A DNA stretch of 59,367 nt, taken from Syntrophomonadaceae bacterium. GTDB taxonomy: Bacteria; Bacillota; Syntrophomonadia; Syntrophomonadales; DTU052. The DNA lies in assembly GCA_012728655.1 (NCBI GenBank), contig JAAYEQ010000008.1, positions 1 through 59,367 of the forward strand, read 5' to 3'. A model generated the notes under the pieces. The model saw nothing but the letters and a program-made list of their open reading frames with translations. It was not told the DNA's origin and made no database searches. Made by a program: the position numbers and the translations under genes. This document shows, piece by piece, positions 38,006-45,422 of this stretch (positions within the stretch are counted from its first letter, which is position 1; every line of letters starts with the position of its first letter).

Positions 38006-38410
38006 TTGAGCAGACGGAAGGCCCGGGACACAGCATTCAAGATACTATTCACAGTCGACCTGGTCAATGCTGATGCCAAGGAGGCTCTTCAAGAACTCGA
38101 TCAAGATTTATCAATTCGAGAAGAAAACCGGAAGTTCATAGCCCAACTGGTCCAGGGGACCCTGGAGCACCTCAAAGAGATTGACCAGCGGATTTCCCGC
38201 TTTTCTCCCAACTGGCCTCTGGAGAGGATGGCTGTAGTCGACAGGACCCTCCTGAGAATGGCGACTTATGAAATGCTGTTTTCCGGTGGTGACGTCCACC
38301 CGGTAGTGGTTATAAATGAAGCCGTGGAGTTGGCCAAAATCTACGGTGATATCCATTCTCACGCCTTCATAAACGCCATCCTGGACCGGATCAAGGAGGT
38401 GGGGACTTGA
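38006..38410 (+). CDS. nusB: Transcription antitermination factor NusB
   Basis: 134 residues from TTG 38006 (GGGAGG upstream). The start reads SRRKARDTAFKILFTVDL, then the family segments FIAQLVQGTLEHLKEIDQ, WPLERMAVVDRTLLRMATYEM, and VVINEAVELAKIYGD. It binds boxA RNA with NusE (S10) during rRNA antitermination. Confidence 0.96.
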   Translation: MSRRKARDTAFKILFTVDLVNADAKEALQELDQDLSIREENRKFIAQLVQGTLEHLKEIDQRISRFSPNWPLERMAVVDRTLLRMATYEMLFSGGDVHPVVVINEAVELAKIYGDIHSHAFINAILDRIKEVGT

Positions 38411-39378
38411 ATGCTTTTCTGGGGGTGGACACCAGCGCCTATACTACCTCGGTAGCGGTGATTGGAGAAACCGGAGAGGTTCTGGCTGATGAGCGCATAC
38501 CGTTAAAGGTGGAAACGGGGAAGAGGGGGCTGCGTCAGTCTGAAGCCCATTTCGAACATACCCGCAATCTTCCGATATTGATGGAAAACCTGGTACCGGT
38601 GTTGAAAGAGCACCGACTGCTGGCCATAGGGGCCAGTGACCGGCCGCGACGGCTTCCAGAGAGCTACATGCCCGTGTTTCTGGCCGGTTCGGGTGTCTGT
38701 CGCTGCCTGGCCAGTATTGGGAATTATCCTCTATATTTTTTCAGCCATCAGGAAGGACATGTAGAGGCGGCTGCTCATAACCTTTCCCTGGATGATCAGG
38801 AATTCATCGCGGTTCATTTCTCCGGGGGAACCTCGGAGATCCTTCGGGTCAAGCGCGACCAGGGTCGATACGATATTGACATAATCCTGGCCACCAAGGA
38901 TCTGCATGCCGGTCAGCTGGTTGACCGGGTGGGGGTGGCTATGGGGGTTCCTTTCCCGTCGGGTCCACATATGGAGAAAATGGCCAAGCCTGCATCCGCC
39001 GGCCTCACGATCCCATCCGCGGTGGACGAGCAGGGTTTTTCCTTTTCCGGTGCGGAAACCCGAGCGGTGGCAATGCTGGCCCGGGGAGTGCCGCCGGAGA
39101 ATGTGGCCTACCTGGTTTTTAAATGTATTGCCAACACCCTGGAAAAAGGGATACGAACGGCTGTCCGCAAACACGGCCTTTGCAAAGTGGTCATGGCCGG
39201 AGGGGTGATGGCCAACATACATATTCGCCGGCGGCTGCAGGAAAGACTGAAGGGTTCGGGAATTAAACTGTTGTGGGCAGAACCGTACCTCAGCACCGAC
39301 AATGCTGTAGGCACTGCTTTGTTGACCCGAAAGTGCTATTACTACGATCAGGAAATGGGGGTTAGTTTTGAGCAATAA
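38407..39378 (+). CDS. TsaD/Kae1-family paralogue
   Basis: 323 residues from TTG 38407, overlapping the nusB stop by 4 bases. ASKHA-fold: LGVDTSAYTTSVAVIG is the first phosphate loop, H114-QEG-H118 the metal-binding HxxxH of TsaD, and YLSTDNAVGTALL the late Asp motif. True TsaD is usually encoded elsewhere with its partners and begins ILGIETSCDETA; this one begins DTSAYTTS and forms a divergent group in clostridial nusB-xseA loci. It may bind ATP and iron, but tRNA t6A synthesis is doubtful. Role unknown. Confidence 0.75.
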   Translation: MNAFLGVDTSAYTTSVAVIGETGEVLADERIPLKVETGKRGLRQSEAHFEHTRNLPILMENLVPVLKEHRLLAIGASDRPRRLPESYMPVFLAGSGVCRCLASIGNYPLYFFSHQEGHVEAAAHNLSLDDQEFIAVHFSGGTSEILRVKRDQGRYDIDIILATKDLHAGQLVDRVGVAMGVPFPSGPHMEKMAKPASAGLTIPSAVDEQGFSFSGAETRAVAMLARGVPPENVAYLVFKCIANTLEKGIRTAVRKHGLCKVVMAGGVMANIHIRRRLQERLKGSGIKLLWAEPYLSTDNAVGTALLTRKCYYYDQEMGVSFEQ

Positions 39379-40237
39379 CAATATCCTGTACGGCAAAGGT
39401 CCGGCTCAAGAAATTCTGGAATACGTATCGGATAATGTGGAACGCCTAAAACGGGCGGGCGTACATCCTCGTCTGGTGACCATTCAAATCGGAGAAGATC
39501 CGGCCTCCCAGGCCTACCTGGCATCCCAGATGCGCAGCGCCGAGAAGGTCGGGATTAAGAGCGAACTGGTAAGCCTCTCTGATACCGCAACCCAGGAGGA
39601 GGCGGTTTGGACTATTGAGTCGATGAACAATGATCCTTCGGTTCACGGTATCATGCTTCATATGCCGGTGCCCAAGCACATTGATGGCCGGGCTCTGCAG
39701 TGGGCAATCAATTACAAAAAAGATGTGGAAGGCGTGACCCCGTATAACCTGGGGCGCCTGTTCCTGGGGCGACCGGTGCTGGCACCGTGTACCGCTCTGA
39801 GCGCGATTCATTTAATAAAGGCCACCGGGGTCAAACTGCGGGGACTGGAGGCAGTTGTTCTCGGACGAAGCGACATTGTGGGCAAGCCGGCCAGCCTGAT
39901 GCTGACGGGTCTGGACTGCACTGTGACCGTGTGCCATTCCGGAACCAGCGAGCGCGGAACGCTGAAGGAGCATGTAGAGCGGGCCGACGTGCTGGTGGCG
40001 TCGGTGGGGAGACCGGCATTTGTCCGGGGTGAATGGATTAAGCCGGGCGCGATTGTGATTGACGTAGGAATCAATTACGTGGACGGCAAGCTGGTGGGGG
40101 ATGTTGAATTTGAAGAGGCCGCCAAAAGGGCCGCTTTTATAACCCCGGTTCCCGGAGGGGTAGGCACGCTTACCACTGCTTACCTGCTGCGGAACCTGAT
40201 CGCAGCCGTTGACTGGCAGTTGAAAACGGAGGAATAA
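39368..40237 (+). CDS. FolD paralogue 1 (intact nucleotide-binding domain, altered catalytic residues)
   Basis: 289 residues from TTG 39368 (GGGGG upstream). It aligns along its whole length with FolD, methylenetetrahydrofolate dehydrogenase/cyclohydrolase. The NAD(P) site is well kept (VVLGRSDIVGKPASLML, CTVTVCHSGT, TPVPGGVG). In the N-terminal catalytic half the invariant Tyr is present (Y50), but the catalytic Lys four residues on is Gln (Q54), the catalytic Gln of VQLP is His (LHMP, H98), and DVDG reads DVEG. It overlaps the upstream gene by 11 bases and is followed 5 bp later by a second FolD paralogue with the opposite pattern. Confidence 0.88.
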   Translation: MSNNNILYGKGPAQEILEYVSDNVERLKRAGVHPRLVTIQIGEDPASQAYLASQMRSAEKVGIKSELVSLSDTATQEEAVWTIESMNNDPSVHGIMLHMPVPKHIDGRALQWAINYKKDVEGVTPYNLGRLFLGRPVLAPCTALSAIHLIKATGVKLRGLEAVVLGRSDIVGKPASLMLTGLDCTVTVCHSGTSERGTLKEHVERADVLVASVGRPAFVRGEWIKPGAIVIDVGINYVDGKLVGDVEFEEAAKRAAFITPVPGGVGTLTTAYLLRNLIAAVDWQLKTEE

Positions 40238-40242
40238 GAGAT

Positions 40243-41064
40243 ATGCCGGTAATTGATGGACAGAAGCTTTCCCGAAGCATCAGAGATGAATTAAAAGCAG
40301 AGGTCGCGCGGTTGAATCGTATCCCGGTACTGGCGGTGGTTCTGGTGGGCACCGACCGGGAAAGCGAGCGCTATGTAAACATGAAAAAGCGGGCCGCTGA
40401 GGAGATTGGAGGACAGTGCCGGATACATCACCTGACAGAGGCTGCCACCGACGAGGTGGTGGCTCTTGTCAACGAACTTAACCGGGATCCGGAAGTCCAC
40501 GGAATACTGGTTCAACTCCCCCTGCCGCCGGGAGTGGATCAGGATGAGGTAATCGCAGCCATTGACGTATCCAAGGATGTGGACGGGTTCCATCCCCTGA
40601 ATCTGGGATTGGGGTATCTGGGGAAACAGGTATTTACGAGCTGCGCATCCGCAGCCATCCTGCATCTGATAGACGATTATGTTGCGTCCCCCCGTCCCCG
40701 GGTGCTGCTGGTGGGAGATTCTCTGGACCTGATTAAACCCTTGAACTCACTGCTCATCGGGCGTGAGTACCCGGTTACGGTCGTCGGTGAGTTGGAGCCC
40801 TGGATCGATTTGTCCCTATATCAGGTAATAGTGCTGGAAAAGGGAGAACCACGCTCAATTTCCTCTTCGGTGTTCAGGGATGGCGCCCTGGTTATCGATG
40901 CCGGTTTCCACTGGCTGGACGGCAAGACCTGTGGGAACGCGATCACCGATGATTTCAGGTCGGAATCCGGACCATATCTGTTGCCGGTACCGGGAGGGTT
41001 GGGCCCGCTGCTTATTACCATGCTGCTTTCCAATCTGGTGAAAGCCGCAGGCAGAAATGGGTGA
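40243..41064 (+). CDS. folD: FolD paralogue 2 (intact catalytic residues, degenerate nucleotide-binding motif)
   Basis: 273 residues. The N-terminal half is a textbook FolD: ERYVNMKKRAAEEIG with Tyr44 and Lys48, GILVQLPLP with Gln91, SKDVDGFHPLNLG with the catalytic Asp. The C-terminal half is changed: where FolD has GRSxxVGxP this has GDSLDLIKP, PCTP is SCAS, and the region after it lacks the usual CHS. It probably binds folate but may not bind NAD(P) in the normal manner, so it could act as a cyclohydrolase, a subunit with paralogue 1, or both. ATG 40243 follows GGAGG; the gene overlaps xseA. Confidence 0.88.
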   Translation: MPVIDGQKLSRSIRDELKAEVARLNRIPVLAVVLVGTDRESERYVNMKKRAAEEIGGQCRIHHLTEAATDEVVALVNELNRDPEVHGILVQLPLPPGVDQDEVIAAIDVSKDVDGFHPLNLGLGYLGKQVFTSCASAAILHLIDDYVASPRPRVLLVGDSLDLIKPLNSLLIGREYPVTVVGELEPWIDLSLYQVIVLEKGEPRSISSSVFRDGALVIDAGFHWLDGKTCGNAITDDFRSESGPYLLPVPGGLGPLLITMLLSNLVKAAGRNG

Positions 41065-42301
41065 AACAGTGTTACCAGGCAACCGAATTCTTTCGGTAAC
41101 GGAAATGACCGTCTACATAAGGTCGATTCTTGAAAATGACCGGCTGCTGCAGAATGTCTGGGTAAGAGGCGAGATCTCGGATTTCCGCTATTACCAGAAG
41201 TCCGGACATATGTACTTTAATCTCAAGGATGAAACCGCCAGTGTTGCCTGTGTTATGTTTCGCACCCGGGCCAAAAGCGTCGATTTTAAGCCTGGTGACG
41301 GCTTGAAGGTAATTGCCCGCGGGTATATATCCGTATTCGAGAAATACGGGCGTTACCAGTTTTATGTGGAGGAAATGGAACCGGACGGGCTGGGCAGCCT
41401 GTTTTTATCACTGGCCCAGCTCAAGGAGCGCCTGGAAAAGGAGGGGCTTTTCGATCAACGGCGCAAACGTCCCATCCCTCGTTTCGTAAACTGCCTGGGG
41501 GTGGTAACCTCCAGTGACGGGGCGGCTTTGAGGGACATCATCCGGGTGGTGCGCCAGCGGCATTCCGGCTGTCATATTGTAGTCGCTCCGGCTGCGGTAC
41601 AGGGTCCGGAGGCGCCGGATGAGATCGCCCGATCGCTCGACGCCCTCAATGAGTGGGGGCAACCGGATGTGATAATCGTCGGCCGCGGCGGGGGTTCTCT
41701 GGAGGACCTCTGGGCTTTCAATACCGAAAAGGTGGTAAAGGCTATCGCTCGGTCACGGATACCGGTCATTTCGGCAGTAGGGCACGAGATCGACTTCAGT
41801 CTCGCCGATCTTGCTGCCGATGTCCGGGCGGCCACGCCCACCCAGGCCGCGCAGATGGCGGTGCCGGATATGCTTGCTTATCAGGAGCAGTTAACCGCCA
41901 CCGGTCTTCGCCTGCGGCGGATAATGGAGAGAAGCTGTAACCAGAGGTGGGCCCAACTGGACTACCTTCGGGAAAGAAGGATATGGAAAAAGCCGCAGTC
42001 CTTATTTGAACCCTACCGCAGGGAACTGCAGCATACCTTGCAGGGCCTGCAGCACCATATGATGAATATTCTGAATGCCCGGTCGTCATCATTAAAACAA
42101 CTGGCGGTCACTCTGGATGCCATCAGCCCCCTCAAGGTGCTGGAGAGGGGTTATGCTATTGCCCGCACGGAAGACGGAGATGTGGTACGTAGTATCGAGC
42201 AGGTGAAGCCGAACTCATTGCTGAACCTGACCGTACGCAACGGTGAAATCAAGGCGGAGGTTCGAGAAATTAGGAGAGGAGACTGGTGTGATGAGTTTTG
42301 A
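41057..42301 (+). CDS. xseA: Exonuclease VII large subunit
   Basis: 414 residues from ATG 41057, overlapping the previous gene by 8 bases. N-terminal OB domain ([26 protein letters not shown]), then the catalytic region ([67 protein letters not shown]), and a helical C-terminus. It degrades single-stranded DNA from both ends with XseB, encoded next. Confidence 0.96.
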
Positions 42302-42527
42302 GCAGGATTTTAACCGGCTGCAGGAGATTGTGAGACAGCTGGAGGAAGGCGATCTGCCTCTCGAGAAGTCCCTGGAACTGTTTCAGGAGGGCATCAGCCT
42401 GTTTCGCCGGTGTCAGGAGGAACTCAACCGAGCGGAGGGAAAGATATCCGAGCTCATTAAATCGTTGGACCAGGGATGGGAAACGATTCCCTTCGAACGG
42501 GACGGGGGAGGGCGCGAACCTGAATAA
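42291..42527 (+). CDS. xseB: Exonuclease VII small subunit
   Basis: 78 residues from ATG 42291; GTG directly before is an alternative. GAGGAG lies nine bases upstream. The pattern [32 protein letters not shown] is characteristic. It overlaps the end of xseA by 11 bases, so both subunits are made together. Confidence 0.94.
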
Positions 42528-42919: not shown

Positions 42920-43429
42920 TTGAAAAAAGCCTTGTTGTGGGGATTAGTCGCTGCAGTACTGTTCGGTGTATTCATCTATTTCCAGGGGCTGCTTGGAGCG
43001 GAAGCGTTTTTCCTGGCGGCCATCGCTCTGGCACTCTTCATCACACTGGGACCAGACGGCGAGTTTTTCAAAATGGGTTTAAGTATGTTAGCCGGACTCA
43101 TAATTGGACTGGCAGGTATCTTTGTGTTGGCTATAGCCTTTCCGTTGCCGCCGTACAATACGGGGTATGTAGCAGTAGTTAGTTCGGTTTCGCTATTCCT
43201 GGCACTCCTGTTGTCGGCTGTCGGGCTCAGGCTCGACGGACTTTTAATCGGTTGGGGAGGCTTGTATGCCGCGGTTTATCCGCTCTACCAAAATGACCCA
43301 ACCGTTCTGGCAACTGCCGGAATAGCCGCCGCAGTCGGTGCAGCCGTATCCCTGCTGGTCGGCTTGGTTTTGGGCCTGTTTATCCAAAAAATGGCGGTTG
43401 CCAGCGCCGCTAGGGAAGGAGGGAACTAG
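42920..43429 (+). CDS. Unknown integral membrane protein
   Basis: 169 residues from TTG 42920 (GGGGGTGAGG upstream). About five membrane helices fill the chain (VAAVLFGVFIYFQGLLG, FFLAAIALALFITLG, LAGLIIGLAGIFVLAIAF, VVSSVSLFLALLLSAVGL, VGAAVSLLVGLVLGLFI), resembling DUF1097-type small membrane proteins, but I am not sure of the family. Its stop is one base before the start of the next gene, so the two form an operon. Confidence 0.7.
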   Translation: MKKALLWGLVAAVLFGVFIYFQGLLGAEAFFLAAIALALFITLGPDGEFFKMGLSMLAGLIIGLAGIFVLAIAFPLPPYNTGYVAVVSSVSLFLALLLSAVGLRLDGLLIGWGGLYAAVYPLYQNDPTVLATAGIAAAVGAAVSLLVGLVLGLFIQKMAVASAAREGGN

Positions 43430-43430
43430 G

Positions 43431-45422
43431 TTGAAAAACCGCTGCCGTATCCACAAACTTGCAGCCATCATTCTGGGCCTTCTCCTGGTGGCGGCAAATC
43501 CGCTCGCGGCCTTTAGCGCCGGGGGAACCGTTTCCGGAGTTAAGGACCATGAACTGGTTCTTACCACCCTTGACACCGACGGAAAGGTGAGTGGAATCCA
43601 GGTTCTGAATCACCTGAGAATCAGCGGGGAAGGGCAGGTTCAGGTAAAGGACAAAACCGCTTACAGACTCACCTCACTGCGCAATCTCTACGGCAGAGAA
43701 AAGTTGGGTGTTCAAGACGGGCAGATAACCATCAGCACTCAGGTTGAGGGATTAAAAGACATTTACTATCTGGCGACCCTCGATCAATCGGCAGTAAAGG
43801 ATATAAAGTTCCCGGTAAGCATCGATATCCAGTACTTCCTGGATGGGAAACAGGTAAAACCGGCCGAGCTCCTGGGCAAGAACGGTCATCTCAAAATGGT
43901 GGTGACGGTGGAGAACACCACTGGTACGCCGAAAGTTCTCGAGTTCCAGAATGACAAGGGAGAAATAGTCTCCAAAGAAGCTGTAATCTTTACCCCCTAT
44001 GTTGTTTCTCTGTCAGGCTGGAAGTTTGACAACCGGTATTTTGACAATGTAACTGCCCCCGGTGTGGTTGGAGAATCCCCTGAGGGAGTGGTTACTGATG
44101 TTCAGGGAGTAACAACCGTGAGTTGGACCATTCCCCTCATTCCTCCTTCTTATCCCTCGAAACAGTACGCGGTTTTGGAAGCTGACGGGAAAAACATTCA
44201 ACTGGATTCCTTTGACATTGCGATCATTCCCGTGCTGCCAGAAACATCTCAGACCGATTCTTTAAGCGGAATCAAGACGGCTTTTGAGAGTCTGTACGCA
44301 GGGTTTGACTCTATTCAAAAAGGAGTTGGGATTGATTCTCAACCAGATACTCTCCTTTACGGCTTCGACACGATATTAAAAGGTTTGGGCAATGATCAGG
44401 CTGAGGGAACCGTTATCAACGGCCTGCGCCAGATAAGCAGCGGCATGGACTCCTTATACGATAATCTGGTCAAAATTCGGATGGGAATTGCCACCCCCGG
44501 ATTCAATCCCGCCACCTTCAGCGCTGCTCAGGGCAAAGATGCTGAAGGAAAGTCTCCCGGAGCCAAGGACGCCATCGATTTGGTGCGTGCAAGCGTTGAC
44601 AAGCAGCTCATACCGGCAGTGGACGCTCAGCAGCAACTGGTGGCCGGCTTGAACGGTGTAATCGGTAATCCGTCGGATGCAGGCAAAACACCTTCAGCCA
44701 CTACTTCCTTGTTCAACGATATAAACACCCTCAGGACACTGGCTGGCAGCGGACCGGCGGGAGACCTGATTTCGAAGGCGATTATACCCAAATTGAACGT
44801 TCTGTCCGGCAACCTGAACGCCCTGGAGAAGGGCGGCAAGATTACCACTGCTGACGGCCAGGTGGACTTCCCGGCATCGTTGGATGCAGTCAAGGCAGGA
44901 CTGGGACAGGTTAATGATTCTCTCGCACGGACCAGTGCCGGCCTGGATCAGGTGGTGAAAGGCCTGGGCGACGTAAAGGCTGACGGAACTCCCGTCCCGG
45001 TTTTGTTGGAAGGCAAACCCGGAACGATACTGTTCGCTATGGCAACGATTAAAGATGGAAGCGACCAGCTTTATCAAGGGGTCAGCGGTCAAGTGGTACC
45101 GGGGCTGAAAAAAATGCAGAGCGGAGTTGCTCAAATCGGTGAAGGGGCGTCTACCGCCAAGGTCAGTCTGGCCGCCGGTCTGGTTGATCTGAGCTCTGCC
45201 GATGCGATAAAAGAGAGTCTGAAGGCCAACGCGGAGGCTGTTGACACCTTCCTGGGCAAGCCTGATGGTGCCGAAGGACAAGTGATGTATGTGTTCCGGA
45301 CCGCTCCGGTTAAGCCGAAGGCCGGAGGTTTGACCAACGGACTGATCGCCCTGCTTGTATTGCTGGGCTTACTGGCGGCCGTGGGCAGAGGCCAATCCAC
45401 TCCCGTTAGAATGGAGGCTTGA
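43431..45422 (+). CDS. Large secreted, C-terminally anchored protein of unknown function
   Basis: 663 residues from TTG 43431 (AAGGAGG upstream). Signal peptide (KLAAIILGLLLVAANPLAAFSA), a beta-rich region to about residue 285, a long helical region with repeated spacing (IKTAFESLYAGFDSIQKGVG, LLYGFDTILKGLG, INGLRQISSGMDSLYDNL, LDQVVKGLGDVK), and a C-terminal membrane helix (LIALLVLLGLLAAVG). The helical repeats recall the extracellular stalk of YhgE/Pip proteins of phage infection and type VII secretion loci. It is encoded with the small membrane protein before it and closed by a terminator. Not identified further. Confidence 0.7.
   Translation: MKNRCRIHKLAAIILGLLLVAANPLAAFSAGGTVSGVKDHELVLTTLDTDGKVSGIQVLNHLRISGEGQVQVKDKTAYRLTSLRNLYGREKLGVQDGQITISTQVEGLKDIYYLATLDQSAVKDIKFPVSIDIQYFLDGKQVKPAELLGKNGHLKMVVTVENTTGTPKVLEFQNDKGEIVSKEAVIFTPYVVSLSGWKFDNRYFDNVTAPGVVGESPEGVVTDVQGVTTVSWTIPLIPPSYPSKQYAVLEADGKNIQLDSFDIAIIPVLPETSQTDSLSGIKTAFESLYAGFDSIQKGVGIDSQPDTLLYGFDTILKGLGNDQAEGTVINGLRQISSGMDSLYDNLVKIRMGIATPGFNPATFSAAQGKDAEGKSPGAKDAIDLVRASVDKQLIPAVDAQQQLVAGLNGVIGNPSDAGKTPSATTSLFNDINTLRTLAGSGPAGDLISKAIIPKLNVLSGNLNALEKGGKITTADGQVDFPASLDAVKAGLGQVNDSLARTSAGLDQVVKGLGDVKADGTPVPVLLEGKPGTILFAMATIKDGSDQLYQGVSGQVVPGLKKMQSGVAQIGEGASTAKVSLAAGLVDLSSADAIKESLKANAEAVDTFLGKPDGAEGQVMYVFRTAPVKPKAGGLTNGLIALLVLLGLLAAVGRGQSTPVRMEA

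Follow-up and report, generated by a model that had tools for sequence, protein, structure and literature searches.

Two adjacent FolD-like genes are found where a single folD would be expected, and each seems to lack the part of the active site that the other has kept. Which reactions do their products catalyze? The locus is part of a contig from a Syntrophomonadaceae bacterium, which was analyzed over its whole length of 59,367 nucleotides (the window). In FolD, folate and nucleotide share a cleft inside one chain. Folate-dependent methenyl-THF cyclohydrolase is known as an activity of bifunctional FolD and of the unrelated FchA. We consider it likely that the bifunctional FolD has been divided in this organism, with protein A being a methylene-THF dehydrogenase and protein B a FolD-derived cyclohydrolase.

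The initial annotation reported the two genes side by side, and both open reading frames were recovered at the coordinates it gave. The locus comprises the following features:

38006-38410, forward strand: nusB, part of the context of the usual folD locus
38407-39378, forward strand: TsaD/Kae1-like gene, overlapping the start of A by 11 bp
39368-40237, forward strand: gene A (A1 type), FolD family, 289 aa, TTG start, predicted monofunctional methylene-THF dehydrogenase
40228-40232, forward strand: GGAGG within the end of A, the likely ribosome-binding site of B as judged from the sequence
40243-41064, forward strand: gene B (B type), FolD family, 273 aa, ATG start, predicted monofunctional methenyl-THF cyclohydrolase
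41057-42301, forward strand: xseA, overlapping the end of B by 8 bp
42243-42527, forward strand: xseB

These genes have the order of a tight operon (nusB, the tsaD-like gene, A, B, xseA, xseB), with only 5 bp between A and B. The pair occupies the usual position of folD, canonically between nusB and xseA as in Bacillus. A GGGGG is found 5' of the start codon of gene A, and A and B are probably translationally coupled. Promoter and terminator scans yielded matches at chance level only. The TsaD/Kae1-like protein encoded between nusB and A (323 aa; TsaD, 79.9 bits) has this placement in most genomes of the order. Two ORFs located 3' of xseB (169 and 694 aa; window positions 42920-45422) have no Pfam match and are conserved in genome G001.

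In both A and B, the two Pfam FolD domains (THF_DHG_CYH and THF_DHG_CYH_C) score above the curated cut-off, and family models call both proteins bifunctional FolD. The initial annotation had described distinct active-site losses in the two proteins, and its residue assignments were confirmed for both upon alignment to E. coli FolD, the numbering of which is used throughout. In A, Tyr50 is kept, and the motifs GRSDIVGKP and CHSGT are intact, while three substitutions are found (K54Q, Q98H and D121E). The last of these, which turns DVDG into DVEG, preserves the carboxylate, so that folate binding by A is not necessarily lost. In B, the catalytic Lys, the Gln, DVDG and PVPGG are intact. SCAS replaces PCTP, GDSLDLIKP replaces GRSNIVGKP, and Leu replaces Thr267 (the Thr of PVPGGVGPMT). 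The diagnostic positions are listed with their conservation among the A1 and B proteins of the order (see below):

39527-39529, forward strand: Gln54 codon of A, replacing the catalytic Lys54 (Gln in 22/22 A1)
39659-39661, forward strand: His98 codon of A, replacing Gln98 (A1: His in 13, Asn in 8, Gln in 1)
39728-39730, forward strand: Glu121 codon of A, replacing Asp121 (DVEG; Glu in 22/22 A1)
39863-39889, forward strand: intact dinucleotide-binding loop GRSDIVGKP of A
40384-40386, forward strand: retained catalytic Lys codon of B (Lys48 of B, Lys54 in E. coli; 43/43 B)
40513-40515, forward strand: retained Gln codon of B (Gln91 of B, Gln98 in E. coli; 43/43 B)
40582-40584, forward strand: retained Asp codon of B (Asp114 of B, Asp121 in E. 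coli; 43/43 B)
40714-40740, forward strand: GDSLDLIKP of B, the remnant of the dinucleotide-binding loop (Asp at position 170, Gly172 lost)

The structure prediction has the FolD fold for A (pLDDT 95) as well as for B (pLDDT 91). The Rossmann domain scores 201 bits in A versus 70 bits in B (Pfam). A thus combines an intact dinucleotide site with the absence of the cyclohydrolase Lys, the two features by which a monofunctional FolD-type dehydrogenase is recognized from sequence. B is of the converse type proposed here for a FolD-derived cyclohydrolase, with invariant catalytic residues and a loss of dinucleotide residues that extends across its clade. It matches FolD families only, and there is no match to the FchA family (PF04961). 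Neither chain has the full set of a bifunctional FolD (Lys, Gln and Asp together with a dinucleotide site): A is devoid of the first part and B of the second.

Such losses might merely reflect the relaxed decay of redundant copies, for which nothing speaks beyond the substitutions themselves. When the whole genome (2.31 Mb, 96% complete) was searched with both FolD domains, no third FolD was found, and the same genome has no match to FchA (PF04961). Pairwise dN/dS within the genus is far below 1 (0.065-0.11 for A and 0.076-0.19 for B) and similar to that of the neighboring xseA; thus, both genes are maintained by selection, and both are conserved across the order. A normal folD elsewhere, with A and B under relaxed selection, had been named beforehand as the outcome that would count against a division of functions; neither was found in this 96%-complete genome. 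The absence of a normal folD and the low dN/dS refute relaxed decay, to which we assign a negligible probability. The genome codes for one Fhs. Wood-Ljungdahl acetogenesis was considered as a metabolic context and rejected, as the genome has no match to CdhC/acetyl-CoA synthase.

As the initial annotation had suggested, the adjacent arrangement was sought in other genomes, and A and B with identical substitutions are present in G001, G002 and G004. Since the substitutions recur in these genomes and order-wide, chance and sequencing error are ruled out. Among 56 genomes of the order, 45 contain B, and only one (G005) has an ordinary bifunctional FolD. In the 43 full-length B proteins, Tyr50, Lys54, Gln98 and Asp121 are each invariant (43/43), while Gly172 and His190 are never found (0/43), position 170 is always Asp (43/43), and Thr267 is replaced by Leu in 42. 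The 22 A1 proteins all have Gln at position 54 and Glu at position 121, and 21 have His or Asn at position 98; their nucleotide site is kept. A further class, A2, comprises 38 proteins, which also lack Lys54 (0/38), have Glu121 (38/38) and keep the nucleotide loop, with Gln98 being retained in 37. All but two of the non-B FolDs of the order (A1, A2) are devoid of the catalytic Lys and carry Glu121; one Lys-less FolD that keeps Asp121 (L071 from G047) was set apart from these classes. The losses are complementary at the domain level. Of 77 columns that are invariant in ordinary FolDs, B retains a fraction of 0.84 in the N-terminal domain and 0.43 in the Rossmann domain, versus 0.65 and 0.78 for A1 (Mann-Whitney p = 2e-5).

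It could be argued that both proteins are still bifunctional or otherwise competent, either through compensating residues or, for B, with another redox partner. A does retain Tyr50 and a carboxylate at position 121, and B retains Gly166 and Ser168 of the nucleotide loop. We consider this highly improbable, however, given that the complementary losses are fixed in two clades and that B not only lacks Gly172, His190, Thr193 and Thr267 but also has an acidic residue at position 170.

The distribution of FchA bears on the function of B. With B as the cyclohydrolase, a genome devoid of B would be expected to code for a different one. FchA is encoded in seven of the nine genomes that have only a Lys-less FolD and no B (one of the seven being a fragment at a contig end) versus 5 of the 45 with B (Fisher p = 1.3e-4); this test ignores kinship, which is considered only to the extent that counting by genus gives p = 0.003. 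The exclusion has exceptions. Five genomes carry B and FchA together, and in family f28, where FchA also occurs in several pair-bearing genomes, it is not clean. Neither B nor FchA was found in G024 (84% complete) or in G042 (99% complete), which codes for A1 and A2 proteins. As the locus in G042 (L061) reads nusB-tsaD-A-xseA, B is truly gone there. Cells can live on the spontaneous hydrolysis of methenyl-THF (PMC5688156), so that a cyclohydrolase is not strictly required.

These data also bear on the idea that B has become a pseudoenzyme, which would bind folate or serve as a regulatory subunit but catalyze nothing. Its nucleotide site is gone, and it evolves faster than A (60% versus 68% identity between G000 and G004), as might be expected of such a protein. 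The four folate and catalytic residues are, however, invariant in 43/43 B and in 10/10 of the B-like proteins described below (Bp), and from genus to genus B is exchanged with FchA, a cyclohydrolase of an unrelated family. A noncatalytic B is therefore unlikely in our view, if not as remote as two competent enzymes.

How A and B relate to each other physically is a separate issue. The initial annotation had offered an obligate hetero-oligomer, in which each chain supplies what the other has lost, as an alternative to a division of functions. In this arrangement, the chains would be active only in a complex built on the FolD dimer interface, or methenyl-THF would be channelled from A to B. The tandem genes, their 5 bp spacing and their probable translational coupling would suit such a complex, as would the dimeric state of FolD in solved structures (PMC5688156) and the fact that A1 and members of the B superclade are encoded side by side in f28 too. 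Across the order, xseA directly follows B wherever neighboring sequence is present, and A1 directly precedes B in eleven genomes from three families (twelve including G054, where a contig end lies between them). A1 is, however, encoded at a locus other than that of B in G016-G020 and G047-G049, and the two types do not always occur together. Of the 45 genomes with B, 25 lack A1 and rely instead on a distant Lys-less A2 encoded elsewhere, while G042 has A1 without B. Obligate assembly is thus unlikely, and the claim that two chains rebuild one active site is disfavored. In addition, as the active site of FolD lies within a single chain, a partner cannot supply the missing catalytic residues. 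A milder version, in which half-active chains associate stably through the ancestral FolD dimer interface and hand over methenyl-THF as a two-subunit channelling pair, is doubtful to the same degree; we give either version a slim chance, slightly better than that of a noncatalytic B. Because B so often occurs with A2 instead of A1, the simplest picture is that of separate enzymes exchanging methenyl-THF.

The division of FolD into a dehydrogenase and a cyclohydrolase, which had been the other proposal of the initial annotation, is strongly supported by the absence of a third FolD and of FchA, by purifying selection, by complementary losses throughout the clade and by the replacement of B with FchA. 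In this scheme, A would convert 5,10-methylene-THF and NAD(P)+ to 5,10-methenyl-THF, or catalyze the reverse reaction. It should be unable to hydrate methenyl-THF, as the Lys/Gln pair is gone. B would hold methenyl-THF in its conserved Tyr/Lys/Gln/Asp site and interconvert it with 10-formyl-THF without a dinucleotide. Methenyl-THF would pass between two separate enzymes, and A, B and the single Fhs would together join formate, 10-formyl-THF and methylene-THF.

We infer both catalytic activities from the residues and from comparative data, and mutants of characterized enzymes serve as a guide. E. coli FolD with K54N has 19% of its dehydrogenase activity left and no cyclohydrolase activity, while Q98H leaves 8% and about 1%, respectively (PMC5688156). 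As a single substitution at K54 or at Q98 costs the E. coli enzyme 80-90% of its dehydrogenase activity, A would need compensating changes. In human MTHFD1, Lys56 appears to be important for binding and not for hydride transfer (PMC9173628), and the Asp125 carboxylate binds the pterin (PMC6443876), as the Glu in A could still do. Based on these data, dehydrogenase but no cyclohydrolase activity is expected of A. For B, only cyclohydrolase activity is expected, as the site for folate and hydration is whole and the dinucleotide site is gone. In genome G043, a second A1-type protein is encoded next to gcvT, gcvH and gcvPA (L064:3578-4552). The A1 type may thus also have been recruited to glycine cleavage, and this neighborhood fits the role of a methylene-THF dehydrogenase.

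Among 300 sampled genomes of the phylum, the B type proper occurs in this order only. A related pair is found in the nine genomes of family f28, in G174 (from another family) and in G108. Its A1-type partner has K54Q and D121E. The B-like partner keeps Lys, Gln and Asp, has Glu at position 170 and Trp at position 234 (Phe in 2/10), and has lost Thr267, but in most cases Gly172 and His190 are retained. Thus, the loss of the dinucleotide site in B is graded, being partial in G108 and f28 and having gone furthest here. All B-like proteins form one group in the tree (bootstrap 100, SH-aLRT 98), as do all A1-like proteins (99/99). The term "tandem paralogues" used in the initial annotation holds as a description of the locus. 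In the best tree, A1 and B are old, separate clades with ordinary FolDs between them; a shared duplication, with A and B constrained together, is not rejected by the AU test (p = 0.38). A scan with the B profile, covering contigs from outside the close kin of this genome, recovered no B-type protein; the FolDs that matched are ordinary except for L187 with Ile in place of the catalytic Lys. Two other, different tandem FolD pairs are located directly 5' of xseA (L252 in G266, L255 in G107), one member having NIHP for VQLP plus DVEG. FolD duplication at the xseA locus may have occurred more than once. Lys-less FolDs with SYIKGA, SYERGA, FYEGSI, FYERSI and SYEQGL were seen in G257, G317, G273, G293 and G078 (L256-L260), with DVDS, DVDC or DLDG variants. 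FolDs with a defective cyclohydrolase site are thus frequent in the phylum.

The comparative evidence supports the A/B split well. If it is true, B is a further, previously undescribed solution for the cyclohydrolase reaction, a FolD shorn of its dinucleotide site, and the pair is a rare example of how reciprocal loss can divide a bifunctional enzyme whose two activities share one active site. Because the nucleotide site is lost by degrees across three lineages (G108, f28 and this order), the path of this split is directly testable. As family models label both proteins as bifunctional FolD, the pathways modeled for these bacteria would be incorrect.

A and B share the fold, domain order and folate site of FolD from E. 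coli, the D/C domain of human MTHFD1, and MTHFD2. In FolD, however, both activities reside in one chain, whereas in A and B the catalytic and dinucleotide residues are on different chains. In the human D/C domain, the NADP site has reportedly been altered by site-directed mutagenesis (Pawelek 2000, cited in PMC9173628); these mutants are a laboratory analogue of B, but an artificial one. A search of open-access literature yielded no FolD described as having cyclohydrolase activity alone. FolD relatives with dehydrogenase activity only are known from yeast and from bacteria that carry FchA (PMC7219735, PMC11064299, PMC6443876). Yeast MTD1, the Peptostreptococcus productus enzyme and the clostridial FolD used with FchA are dehydrogenases with a broken cyclohydrolase site, which A resembles (PMC11064299, PMC6443876, PMC7219735 and the Clostridium perfringens study cited there). 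The partner of A, however, is of the FolD type and not FchA. The N-terminal domain of human MTHFD1L is FolD-like and has lost activities (PMC11064299), as is predicted in part for B; MTHFD1L is devoid of both, however, whereas B retains all cyclohydrolase residues. FchA (FTCD_C, PF04961) catalyzes the reaction that is predicted for B and replaces B in most B-less genomes, but it represents an unrelated family, while B is derived from FolD.
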